Origin: Capitulum mitella | Lineage: Eukaryota > Arthropoda > Thecostraca > Pollicipedomorpha > Pollicipedidae | Assembly (NCBI GenBank): GCA_030062745.1 | Contig: CP099844.1 | Coordinates: 21,824,596 to 21,888,595, forward strand | Direction of reading: 5' to 3' | DNA: 64,000 nucleotides | Shown here: piece after piece, positions 16,657-58,500 of the stretch | Layout: every line of letters starts with the position of its first letter | Position numbering within the stretch: position 1 is the first letter of the stretch | The notes under the pieces: model-generated | Told to the model about the DNA's origin: nothing | Seen by the model: only the letters and a program-made list of their open reading frames with translations | Databases searched by the model: none | Made by a program: the position numbers and the translations under genes

Positions 16657-46523
<29,867 letters not shown>

Positions 46524-48872: not shown

Positions 48873-48984
48873 TCAGATGTCCAGGTCGTCGTCCGGGTCC
48901 TCCTCGTCCCAGTCGTCGGCGGCGTCCGGCTGGTAGAAGATCTGGCCTCCTGGGCCCGACTCCGATTCCGCGCCCTGCTCTGGC
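48873..48984 (-). CDS. ELP5 exon 5 (C-terminus)
   Basis: Acceptor TTTCCTGCAG, one base to finish an Arg codon, 36 codons and TGA. Encodes the acidic ELP5 signature tail. Confidence 0.95.
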
Positions 48985-51900
48985 CTGCAGGAAACGGACA
49001 TGTTATCCACTGCATGAAAACGAAGAAAGGTCGAACAGCACCTCGGCGCCGCCACGTAAACAAGACTTACCTGATCTGACCAAATACGCTCTCTGCAACG
49101 CTATTCTGAGCTCCTCACACAGTGAACCGGCATTAAGAAATCTATATATGATTGCAGTAACGCCGGTAGTTCGGCTTCAATGATTCTGCACACGTATCAC
49201 ATACCGCGATTCATTAGTTTTTGACGGTAATGTATAAAAGCTTAAACTCCAGCATCGCACCACAAACGCTCAAATTCAAGAAAAGAATACTAAAGGTTCA
49301 ATGTTGCTCAGGGGAATACGGGATTATATTCCACGATGGCGACACAGTCACTTTCAAGGCTGTCACCATAACGATCACCCATACAAAGACTACCTCGGTT
49401 ACACACATAATACTTCACTACTTAGGCTTCAGCATCCAACATTTCGTCATACGAACTGGGCTTCCGTGCGCGACTCACATTACGTACAGCAGCTGACTGA
49501 CCTAAGGCAGGAAAGCGGACCGACCTGATGTAGGGGAACTGACTGATATGAAGCAGGGTAACTGACTGACTTGGACTGCGCCGCTGACTGACCTGAGGCA
49601 GGAAAGCGGACCGACCTGAGGTAGGGCAACTGACTGACATGAAGCAGGGTAGCTGACTGACCTGAGGTTGGGCAGCTGGCCGACCTGAAGTAGGCAGCTG
49701 ACCGACCTGACACAGGGCAAATGACTGACCTGAGGAAGGCCAGCCGACTGATCTGACACAAGGGTAGCTGACTGACCTGAGGTAGGGCAGCTGACTGACC
49801 TGACACAGGGCAACTGACTGATCTGAGGTTGGGCAGCTGACTGACCTGAAGCAGGGCAGCCGACTAACCTGAGGTGGGGCAGCACCAGCTGGCTGCAGGT
49901 CTGCCGCTCCTGCTGACCTGAAGCAGGGCAGCCGACTGACCTGAGGTAGGGCAGCACCAGCTGGCTGCGGGTCTGCCGCTCCTGCTCCGACAAGTGCAGG
50001 CTGAAGGTGGTCAGGCCGGGCGCCAGTTGAGCGCCCGAGTCGCCCGCCGCCGGCCGCTGTATAGCTGAGGCGGGCTGCGGCCGGCACGGCTCGACCCGGG
50101 TCACCTGCAGCTCAGCGTCCAGACACACCCGCTCCACCTGGCGGAGACACGCAAACAAATACGACGCATATAGCATAGCGCCGTGATACCCGGACAAACT
50201 CATTTGGCCACATACAGCCAAGCGTGACAGGCAAAACATCGAAACGCACTACCAATAATACATCACCAGTCAGTACACCCACACGCCCACAGAACCAGTT
50301 ACCGCGTATCTGAACAGAAACAGACGCCAACAACAACCAGTCACAAGCCCACCCTGCCAGTTGTCAGCTTGTTTCACGATTAAACTTCCTCGCAACCACA
50401 CAAGACCGTGACGACAGACGAGTCCAGTTAACGCCGGCCGCGGCACCCCGCAGCGTCGCACGCGGTACGTACGGCCGACTCCACCTTGCCCGTCCGGGAT
50501 CGGCTGGTGGTGCTGACCGTCAGCTCCCGGCCGGTGCCCTCCACGGAGACCACGTGGGTGGCGTAGTGGCGCAGCTGAGCCAGCCAGTCGTCGCCGGCGG
50601 CCTCCTCCGAGACGGACAAGACCAGCTGGTGGCCTGCGAGGCCCGAAGATGGGGACTGAGCCCCCACACAGACAGACAGGGGACTGTTGTACGCGGCAGA
50701 GAATATGACGTGTTTACAGTCGATGGTGGGAAATGTAATGGCATGCTACAGTGGCATGCACATCAAGGCCAAATGTGGATCAAAACTGAACTGTAGTGCC
50801 ATTCAACAGCAGTGACTCAGCCAGCCAGCCCACACTGGCTTCTGCATGATTACTTATCCAATCCCACTGCACTTCAAATTCCACTGTCCACAGGCATTCG
50901 CCTCCCTATCACAACAACTTCTGCTGCGGCCGGCCCTCCCTCTCTCACTCTCCCAGCACAATGCGGCTCACCTGCAGCCTTCACCTGCTGCACCAGCCGA
51001 CACAGCCGGCCGACGCCGAGCCAGTGCAGCAAGCAGGAGGCGTCCTCCAGCACCAGCAGGGCGGCGGGCGGGCCGGCCGGCGGCACGGCGACCCATAGCC
51101 GGGCGGCCAGCTGCTCGGCGCTCTGCCAGCGGCCCGGCTGGTCCGGCTCCGTGAGCGGGTGGCGCGCGAGCAGCGGCCAGCCCGGCAGCTCGGCGGGCGA
51201 CTGGCCGCTCGGCACCAGCGTCACGGCCACCTGCTGCTGCAGACGGTGCAGTACGTAGCCCAGCAGCAGCGACCGGGAACAACTGGCGCCGATATCTGTC
51301 CGGAAACACGGGAACAACGCATAACAACAAAGCATAATCAGGCGAGACTTTTGCAGTTGAATGGAGGTGCAGCCAGAGGGGTGCAGGAGATGCAGTCCAG
51401 CTATCACAAAATGTAACATGCACAGGAATGACATGCTTAAAAATATACGAAAACATTAACATATCACCCTCCTCAATTTTCCTTTTGTGATGCAGACACC
51501 TGAGACTGCATCCAGAGACCAAGGTGACAAAATAACACTGCCTTTAGCATACCTGCAATAGCAAATCCAAATGCACATACTGGGATTGTGGCAGTCCTGC
51601 AGACTCTTCATGATACAAAACTTTTATGCCACTTACTTATCTCTTGCTTCAAAGTCCCATTTACATGCATAATTCTCATAAGCATTTATTTGTCAGTTTC
51701 AGGTTTTTTTGCATTTTACCATACCCATCAGACCCATATCATACGCTCTCCCAGAAGGACCTCTGGATAATCAATTTTGCATCACATTTTCCAATGATGT
51801 GACCTGGATGTTACTTGCAGCAAGCCTTTCAGTGCTTGCTGCTTGTTTTGGAAGCACAATTTCTGAATCCCTCTGCATTTTCCATCACTGAACATTCAGC

Positions 51901-55503: not shown

Positions 55504-58500
55504 CTGCGGCGGCCGAGACGGGTACTTAGGACAGCCGACAGAAGCTGAGGAGGCTGATATAATGTGCTCAGTACAAAGGACACAGCAGCGGCAGCAGCCG
55601 GGACAAGGCTAGTCAGCGGTACACTCCCAGACGCAACTCCTACAACATGGGAGACGGATAAAAACAGCAGAGCCATATGGCATACCAGCCAGAATAGCTT
55701 CCCATCGCGCAAACCAGGCGGCCGCAGAGAACCATCTCACCTGTCCGACCATCCGACTGAGCCACACCCAGAGGGCGTACGCGGTGCCGAGCAGGAAGCC
55801 GTACTTGTCGGAGGGCAGCGCCGCCTCCACGGAGGAGACCACCAGGCCGGACTGGGCGCAGTGGCGCAGACAGGCGGCGTGCAGGGACGGGCCGGCCGTG
55901 TTCAGCACCAGGTCGAACCTGGCGGTCCGGGCGGCGCCCGTCAGCGCGGACAGGCCCCGGGCGGCGCCCGTCAGCACGGCCAGGCCCCGGGCGGCGCCCG
56001 TCAGCGCGGACAGGCCCCGGGCGGCCCGCCCACTGACGACGGCCGGGCGTGCCGGCCGAAAATGGACTCGGACGGCACAGGGCCGACAGCTGGCTCGACT
56101 AGGATCTGCGAACGCAGGGGCGAGGATCACGGAGAGGAAGGATGCGGGGGGGGGGGGTGAGCCGGACAGATCATCGGGTGCGTGGTACGCATCAAAGGAA
56201 ATCAGCCCCTGGGACGAGACACCAAAGGCCGATGGGAAGCACGCGAAAGCTGATTGCACTTGGAGATGAACACTTGAACACTTGGAGATGAGTAGTTCCA
56301 ATAGTTGCAAGCAATCTGTACACTTTTATCCCTCCGGTTTTCAAGTACGAAAACCAGCAATGGGATAGGTATGATCTTGAAAGGGTCAGCAAATCATGAC
56401 AGCCAACTCAGAGAGTCGGTACCCACATACAGCCTGGCGGGGAGGAAAAGGAAGGCGTGAGCCATCCTTCTCCCCAGGTCCTGCAGGGACCATGAGCGGC
56501 AGACAGCGACCGGAGCCGGCTCAGGGGAACACACACGGCCGGCAGTGGGGACACGGACGGCACGGGCCAACTCTTCTGGCGGCAGGAACCAGCTCAGCCG
56601 CCGGCGGCGCGGCGACTCACTTGTCTCGCAGCGACAGCTCCTTTTCCAGGTCGGCCGTGTCGTACTCGATGACGTCATCGGCGCCCAGCATGCGTGCCAA
56701 CGGCACCAACCGGGCCGACACGGTGGTGGTCACGTGACCGCCCCACGACTTGACCAGCTGGAGGGCGATGATACCCACCGCGCTGGCGCCCGCGTGCACC
56801 AGCACCCTGGCACAGAGGACGAAACCGGAGGTCTCGTGATGGCTGGATACGAAACAGCCAATTCCATTGCAAAATGGTAAGTCGCCAAAAATTCGAATTC
56901 TGAACAATTCCGATGTCATATGATAAAAGCATGAAGTTCTCCATACTGGCACAGTGACGTTTTGAAGCAGACAATGCATAAAACACGTCCAGCTCTTCTC
57001 GGATGGCGCATTCGCTACCACGTACATCGACCGCCCTTCACGGTTTCGCCAACTGTTCTGGATGTACCAGCATTCCTCCTGGTCTAGCACTTAGCTCGCC
57101 TCTCACCACATGTTTCCCTTGTCTTACCATGAGCCCTAACGGTGGCTCTCCGCCCGTCCCTGCGATCTCACCATCAATCCTGGTGGCCGCTCACCGTTTA
57201 TCCCTGTGCTCTCACCATCAGTCTGGCGGCCTCTCGCTGCCTGTCCCCATGGTCTCACTATCAGCTCTGGTAGCCTCTCACCCTCCACCCCTGCTGTCTC
57301 ACCATTGGTCTCTGACGGCCTCTTGCTGCCTGTCCCCGTGATTTCACTATCAGCCATACGGAGGCCTCTCACCGTTTGTCCAGTGCCGTGTCCGGGCCGA
57401 TGCCGGCCTGAGAGACCAGAGCGTTCCAGGCCACCGTGCCGGAGTAGGGCAGCGCGGCGGCGCGCTCGAACGTCACGCCGTCCGGCTTCCGGGACAGCTG
57501 CAGCACGCGGAGCGACACCACCTTACAACGGGCCCACACAACACAGGCACGACGTCGAAGGAGACAGACATCCACTCTTGGTGAACTTTATTAGGTAACT
57601 GTAGTTGGTTGTGTTGATAACTGTGGGCTTTAAAACGCACGGTAGATGCTCTAGTTACAAACTGACCGAAGGCAGTAGGCTTTACCAACAACTGCTCCTT
57701 GCACAAAAACGAATAATTAGACTGTAAAACTAAAGCAGGCCTATCTATTACGGCTGAGATATCATATCGGAAAACAAAACTCTTTGCAAAAAACGACACA
57801 GTTTGACAATATCGCACAGTTAACTGATACACTTCGGAAACACAAAAGTCGTGAAACCCCTGAGCACGTATCACCATGCGATCCACGCGACCGGGTCCAC
57901 CACTCTTCGTCTCGCCTCACCTCTTTCTCGTCGAGCACGACAAACTCGGCCAGCGTGCCCGGCTTCCAGAAGGGCACGGCCGCCCAGACGGGGTCGCCCG
58001 CCTCCCAGAGGGTGACCTCCGGGCCGACCTGTTCCACCACGCCGGCCAGGTCGCGGCCCAGCACCACCGGAAGCTCTGCCGCCACGTGCTGCCCGGGCGC
58101 CGCCGTACCGGGTCAGTGAAGTGGCACGGCGCCGCCACACACGCCTCGGCGACAAAACAGCGCCGTGAGTCATTTATCACGGCATACTCGTAGGCTCGCA
58201 AATACTCCCGCAACCAGGAGTGACAGACGAGCACGCTGCCTTTGCCAAGCGGTCGGCCGCGAGTCTGCTGCCCGGCGCCGGCCACTGAACGGGCGTCAGC
58301 GAACGGTGCGTTCCTCACCGGGTTGTACTTGTTGGTCTGTCTGCGGAGCGTCCTGCCGTAGCCGGCGGCGATGCGCAAGTCGATCCTGTCGACGGTGGCC
58401 GCCTTGACGCGGACCAACACCTCGGTGGGCGAGGCCAGCTCCGGCCGCGGCTGGTCCTCCACCAGCATCACCCCCTGCCGGCGTCACAAGTGTGACAGGC

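Follow-up and report, generated by a model that had tools for sequence, protein, structure and literature searches.

Tandem repeats that span an exon–intron border were named mirages in the amphioxus Adh3 gene and then in the globin genes BflGb6 and BflGb9, where regular splicing is reported to continue and copy number to be unstable (PMC3087553). Related arrangements have been described in other settings: in human UBC and VCX3A, an AG|GT within a tandem repeat serves as both donor and acceptor (PMC10809524); tandem duplication of AGGT gives rise to introns under the Rogers model, with potato RdRp, ATP2A1 and fission yeast 24-bp repeats as examples (PMC4974935) and further cases of intron gain in Drosophila (PMC2891723). 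Here we describe an array of about 23-nucleotide (nt) units at the exon 4/intron 4 border of ELP5 in the arthropod Capitulum mitella. The locus lies in a 64,000-nt stretch of the genome (GenBank assembly GCA_030062745.1, contig CP099844.1, positions 21,824,596 to 21,888,595), hereafter the window, whose numbering is used throughout for ELP5. We consider it probable that this array is a junction-spanning minisatellite of the mirage kind, grown from the exon 4/intron 4 border, and that the first donor is the one mostly used.

Four exons of ELP5 were located on the minus strand, and the first exon was not found. Joined, the located exons encode 264 residues that match Pfam Elong_Iki1 (3.8e-08), and residues 197-261 match Elongator complex protein 5, chain 8asv_E (2.1e-06). 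A search of the genome (477 Mb in 16 contigs, one assembly) with the ELP5 protein gave four exon matches at a single locus; ELP5 is single-copy, and a retrocopy, sought as a record of splicing, was not among these matches. Intron 4 measures 956 nt, or 494 nt without the array, whereas introns 2 and 3 measure 338 and 335 nt. The features of the locus are these:

51296-50972, minus strand: ELP5 exon
50633-50473, minus strand: ELP5 exon
49941-50137, minus strand: ELP5 exon 4 (in the numbering of the sequence-only reading that preceded this analysis), 197 nt, ending in ...CTGCCCTACCTCAG, phase 2, placed by homology across the junction
49938-49943, minus strand: normal donor, CAG|GTC(AGT), U1 pairing -8.0 kcal/mol
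49913-49984, minus strand: first 72-bp copy, from a repeat search, with 44 nt of exon, the real donor and 28 nt of intron
49841-49912, minus strand: second 72-bp copy, from a repeat search, carrying within the intron a copy of 44 exon bases (49912-49869) and a donor at 49869/49868
49866-49871, minus strand: distal donor, CAG|GTT(AGT), 72 nt beyond the normal one and adding 24 residues in frame, with U1 pairing of -8.2 kcal/mol
49479-49940, minus strand: the 462 nt that open intron 4, made up of 18 units of about 23 nt and the exon copy, delimited by Tandem Repeats Finder (TRF), hand-set borders and the match to the exon
49502-49504, minus strand: first stop (TAG) met when exon 4 is read on through the array
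49471-49478, minus strand: GTGAGTCG, the last partial unit
48873-48984, minus strand: ELP5 exon 5, the conserved acidic C-terminus and stop, placed by homology

Each array unit, of 22-24 nt, corresponds to the last 15 bases of exon 4 followed by the first 8 bases of the intron. The exonic part (49955-49941), which codes for LPYL, is the seed of the array and is, judging from the alignment of LPYL with LPFL of 8asv_E, the older part of the unit. TRF reported a period of 23 with 20.2 copies at 49489-49955 and a period of 72 with 2.0 copies and 95% matches at 49841-49986; scores for the array ranged from 341 to 386, the 91-bp period scoring above the 23-bp period. When borders were placed by hand at each AG|GT, 18 units were counted, with the exon copy between units 1 and 2. 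The exon end recurs at 12 or more of its 15 positions at ten places in the array, once at 15/15. Of the 127,972 positions on the two strands of the window, only 12 agree at 12/15 or better, and among 1000 Markov-1 resamples of the array the highest match was 13/15. The match between exon and array is in register and far beyond chance, and the proposal of the sequence-only reading, that the ELP5 exon end and its donor had been expanded into a minisatellite, is borne out. In the genome the array matches only itself, at the sensitivity of the search.

The 72-bp duplication that had been noted at the start of the array is likewise real, in frame and free of stops. Its copies are identical at 69 of 72 positions; of the three differences, two fall within exon sequence and the third turns the donor's GTC into GTT. 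Because the block takes in a whole unit together with 5 nt of the following one, the duplication is younger than the array. Duplication also took place in blocks of about 91 bp, or about four units, since the 91-bp period outscores the 23-bp period and since, near the 3' end of the array, the units at 49661 and 49570, and those at 49615 and 49524, are nearest neighbours that lie four units apart and show one difference each.

The copies thus differ at three sites and the 18 units differ from one another by 26% on average, which argues against an assembly artefact, in which an unstable or heterozygous repeat would have been misassembled so as to give a false duplication or copy number. Misassembly is a risk in tandem arrays, and an amphioxus globin mirage is reported to have been wrongly assembled in a draft (PMC3087553), but the same layout also recurs at unrelated genes, described below, and we regard an artefact as extremely improbable.

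The sequence shows the following order of events. A 23-nt segment over the exon 4/intron 4 border (15 exon and 8 intron bases) was tandemly duplicated, and the array grew to 18 units, partly by way of blocks of about 91 bp; the 72-bp block with the exon end, the donor and the first unit was then duplicated once more. The final GTGAGTCG may represent the original start of the intron.

The array has the structure of a mirage, that is, a minisatellite-like array whose unit holds exonic and intronic sequence of one border. As in the amphioxus examples, many units carry AG/GT, and the unit lengths given there (10-72 bp in Adh3, 150-160 bp in BflGb6) bracket that of ELP5 (PMC3087553). The amphioxus mirages differ in belonging to a cephalochordate rather than an arthropod, in affecting both 5' and 3' borders, whereas donor motifs are enriched here and an acceptor-like motif is not, and in being documented by reverse transcription–polymerase chain reaction and length-instability data, whereas the ELP5 array is described from its sequence (PMC3087553). 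Rogers-type intron gain also begins with tandem duplication of a short AGGT-bearing segment, and the fission yeast unit of 24 bp is similar, but there a new intron arises within an exon, whereas in ELP5 an existing donor was multiplied and the intron lengthened (PMC4974935). In that model both intron ends derive from the duplicated segment; in ELP5 the exon 5 acceptor, TTTCCTGCAG|GCCAGA at 48985, lies outside the array, 494 nt past its end. Minisatellites of about 30 bp at exon–intron boundaries in human segmental duplications, described as able to change splicing, are comparable in position but concern recent human paralogs rather than a single-copy conserved gene (PMC2812944). In the literature searched, no title joined ELP5 with minisatellite, although the two words were not combined in any search, and we do not claim priority.

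The donors of the array are numerous and well preserved. With the exon's own included, 14 AG|GT junctions are present, and on the ELP5 strand the array stretch has 13 CAGGTNRGY sites, where their frequency in the remainder of the window would predict 0.05. The donor core is complete in every unit that retains AG|GT, and the exon is undamaged as far as 49941. Pairing with U1 ranges from -6.9 to -8.2 kcal/mol for twelve later junctions, against -8.0 for the exon's own, and is weaker at the TAG|GT junction (-6.4) and at the final GTGAGT (-5.5). Six donors are in frame with exon 5 and free of stops, at offsets of 0, 72, 141, 234, 279 and 348 nt, and would add 0, 24, 47, 78, 93 and 116 residues. 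The sequence-only reading had proposed two usable donors 72 nt apart, at 49941 and 49869, the second adding 24 residues; the coordinates and the stop-free in-frame insert were right, and the two donors are about equal in U1 pairing, but the number of candidate donors was understated, and protein homology sets the two apart.

The match to 8asv_E passes unbroken over the 49941 junction into the acidic tail, whereas with the 24-residue insert the Pfam Elong_Iki1 score falls from 33.6 to 29.8 bits, the match then stopping before the tail. The homology therefore favours donor 49941, and the remaining array is most likely removed along with the intron. The silence of the array would not be explained by donor strength, because its donors pair with U1 equally well.

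A functional ladder of alternative donors, in which the array is used and graded ELP5 isoforms carry in-frame inserts of 24, 47, 78, 93 or 116 residues, would draw on the same six in-frame donors and their equal U1 pairing, and on a frame that stays open from the exon as far as the TAG at 49504-49502. Such an insert might be borne: the C-terminal extension of Elp5 is described as flexible in the yeast complex (PMC10018365), so that an insert before the tail need not be lethal. Against this, the inserts reduce the Pfam match, the two exon-part differences between the 72-bp copies (C>T and T>C) both alter a residue (R to C, Y to H) and none is silent, and the unit length is not a multiple of three, arrays elsewhere in the genome showing no bias towards such multiples either. 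The donor window of the units has 15 of 162 letters off the consensus, against 54 of 252 elsewhere in the units, but on a neighbour-joining tree the 9-nt donor window takes 13 parsimony steps and 4 of the 23 circular windows take fewer; we therefore did not take these figures as evidence of selection on the donor sequence. Over three frames the array holds 3 stops where simulation gave a mean of 9.56 (sd 5.19), a shortfall that is not significant under a tree-based null (P = 0.096); a cruder star null put the scarcity at about 5% per frame. We did not accept that the array has been kept stop-free as coding sequence. We judge a functional ladder unlikely.

Recursive or dual-specific splicing, in which each CTNCCCTNCCTCAG|GTCAGT unit acts as both a 3' and a 5' splice site and the intron is removed stepwise with the donor always rebuilt, would make use of the AG|GT at all 14 junctions. 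The array sites tested have 8-10 pyrimidines in the 12 positions before AG, compared with 8, 8, 8 and 9 at the four real acceptors of the gene, and dual-specific AG|GT in tandem repeats is documented for human UBC and VCX3A (PMC10809524). Those arrays resemble that of ELP5 in carrying AG|GT in each tandem unit, with multiple alternative junctions possible, but the repeat there is exonic and the intron lies wholly inside it with a length that is a multiple of the unit, whereas the ELP5 acceptor at 48985 is outside and the unit is 23 nt (PMC10809524). Units of 23 nt are also below the usual intron size, so steps would need several units, and branch-like YTNAY is scarce, with 2 occurrences in the 462-nt array against 6 in the following 494 nt. 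We consider this mode of removal very improbable.

The mirage interpretation would have splicing proceed mostly at the first donor, 49941, with the array leaving with intron 4 and being tolerated, and with distal donors used at a low level, if at all. Given six in-frame donors and few stops, distal use could lengthen ELP5 by 24 to 116 residues just ahead of its flexible acidic tail.

A further donor-like site lies downstream of the array. A perfect CAG|GTAAGT at 49060-49073 (minus strand, first intron base 49070) stands 86 nt before exon 5 in the exon's frame and pairs with U1 at -12.1 kcal/mol, above every ELP5 donor scored. An extra exon ending at 49070 was considered and rejected: by eye, no suitable acceptor in the needed phase and no good exon lie ahead of it.

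The genome scores at least 150 Chitin_bind_4 domains, a family characteristic of arthropods. We asked how often donor motifs cluster in this way across the genome, taking as a cluster three CAGGTNRGT sites spaced 5-35 nt apart and counting places rather than arrays. Such triples occur at 973 places (518 + 455), against 133 (78 + 55) for the reversed pattern, whereas single sites number 34,276 and 27,918. Triples of a permuted motif occur at 325 places and those of its reverse at 482, the listed part being largely long single arrays. Triples of the exact CAG|GTGAGT (CAGGTGAGT) number 91 against 0. No excess was seen on the acceptor side, where CCTGNRRRRR triples numbered 1167 against 1083 reversed, the looseness of this motif making it a weak test. 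Arrays of the donor, reversed and permuted motifs were then counted by hand over the span of the first donor listing, namely contig 1 and the first 34.98 Mb of contig 2. This gave 27 donor arrays, 7 reversed-motif arrays and 12 permuted-motif arrays (27 against 7, P = 0.003 given the single-site ratio; 27 against 12, P = 0.012). The class is larger than this count, because the strict pattern misses the ELP5 array itself.

In 8 of these 27 arrays the median donor spacing is divisible by three; the reading frame is thus not preserved, which is what intronic ladders with use of the first donor would lead one to expect. In 12 of the arrays the first donor has stronger U1 pairing than the other donors on average, and in 10 the pairing is equal. 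The largest ladder of this first set (L041, C1:30094000-30099000) holds 46 AG|GT over about 1.1 kb, with GTAGGT and GTAAGT donors.

The open stretch ahead of the first donor was translated for all 27 arrays (59 open frames) and compared with Pfam at an E cut-off of 0.01. Domains were found ahead of 10 of the 27, all at 2.5e-05 or better; a weak TMEM132 match (0.027, L042) was left out. The ten are as follows:

L034: cobW
L035: POLO_box, array assigned through a PDB match
L043: SAC3_GANP
L045: EFF-AFF, below Pfam's own cut-off
L046: A_deamin, array assigned through a PDB match
L047: Ras
L052: A_deaminase, below Pfam's own cut-off
L053: Sec63
L055: BAH, array assigned through a PDB match
L057: COMP

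At the same cut-off no domain was found in 41 open frames of 12 control-motif arrays taken from those listed, in 25 antisense frames (two too short and dropped) or in 23 downstream frames (four too short and dropped); by Fisher's test, 10 of 27 against 0 of 12 control arrays gives P = 0.013, and the comparisons with antisense and downstream frames give 0.0005 and 0.0008. In five of five loci, with the right frame used, a match to a solved structure reaches the last codon before the first donor:

PLK1-like: residues 7-88 of 88
DNMT1-like: residues 24-74 of 74
RAB14-like: residues 44-85 of 85
ADAR2-like: residues 28-81 of 81
ASCC3/SNRNP200-like: residues 17-74 of 74

For the PLK1-, DNMT1- and ASCC3/SNRNP200-like loci a longest-open-frame rule gave no matches, and other frames matched. 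By eye, about nine further arrays of the 27 resemble coding exons. A second set consisted of 16 arrays with exact CAGGTGAGT, drawn from 19 listed places (two were already in the first set and one was a near copy). Here the 36 open frames came from 15 arrays, the remaining array having no frame of 60 nt; a single frame matched VPS9, read as L088, and at L097 residues 18-111 of 114 matched MAGI-2 in a frame picked by eye.

The process proposed for ELP5 has probably acted at other 5' splice sites of this genome. Tentatively, and as a possibility that we hold a little short of an even chance, we suggest that 5' splice sites are preferred birthplaces of minisatellites in this arthropod, many genes (PLK1-, DNMT1-, RAB14- and ADAR2-like among them) carrying ladders of duplicated donors of which the real donor is the first rung. 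Either tandem duplication during transcription or splicing would be especially frequent at such borders, or the ladders would be kept because they are harmless or even aid exon recognition. If this were so, the ladders would be a store of variants from which donor shifts and new exon ends could arise, ELP5 having five ready in-frame extensions.

Several observations weigh against the mirage interpretation and its extension to other genes. The array donors equal the real donor in the strength of their U1 pairing, and stops in the array are somewhat scarcer than simulated, leaving room for translation. Permuted control motifs form arrays too. Eight of the 27 first-set arrays show no convincing exon by eye, and a database-supported exon was found in only 2 of the 16 second-set arrays, a weaker result than in the first set; not every donor-bearing array is therefore proved to lie at an exon end. 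The second-set result may be due in part to the limited length of upstream sequence (about 600 nt) and to a rule for choosing the first donor that can start too late inside an array, and fewer of these arrays may sit at exon ends.

Taken alone, the ELP5 array is a further case of a known kind, and what makes it interesting is that such arrays recur within one arthropod genome and offer a ready-made test of how donors are chosen. To our knowledge, mirages are known in print only from amphioxus; the present array places mirage-type repeats in a second phylum. Donor choice among near-identical sites is usually studied by engineered duplications. Here the ladders are natural, hold 3 to 46 AG|GT sites within one genome and leave the coding exon ahead intact, and RNA junction counts over them would reveal which of position, exon context and donor strength governs the choice. 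Intron lengthening and the origin of new exon ends are further questions on which this class of arrays has a bearing.

By hand count, GTCAGT makes up 29 of the first 100 listed CAGGTNRGT sites on contig 1 and GTAAGT only 2, although U1 has the canonical 5' end at all 8 loci examined out of 11 matches. GTCAGT is also the first donor in 16 of the 27 arrays. Either donors in this genome favour C at +3 or the word is common for another reason.

Among 17 repeat units of the window checked for AGGT, six have one on some strand, that of ELP5 included, and only in the ELP5 array is a complete donor core repeated beside a known exon end, the exon map outside ELP5 resting on ten open reading frames scanned, two with matches. 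These two, the only matches beside ELP5, are a protein kinase exon at 40661-41422 (plus strand) and a zinc-binding dehydrogenase exon at 56620-57090 (minus strand). The window also contains a (CT)65 run with 96% matches at 27207-27336, adjoining a second pyrimidine-rich repeat at 27355-27411, and a 30-bp repeat of 3.3 copies with 94% matches at 55927-56025, in which several frames are open on both strands.
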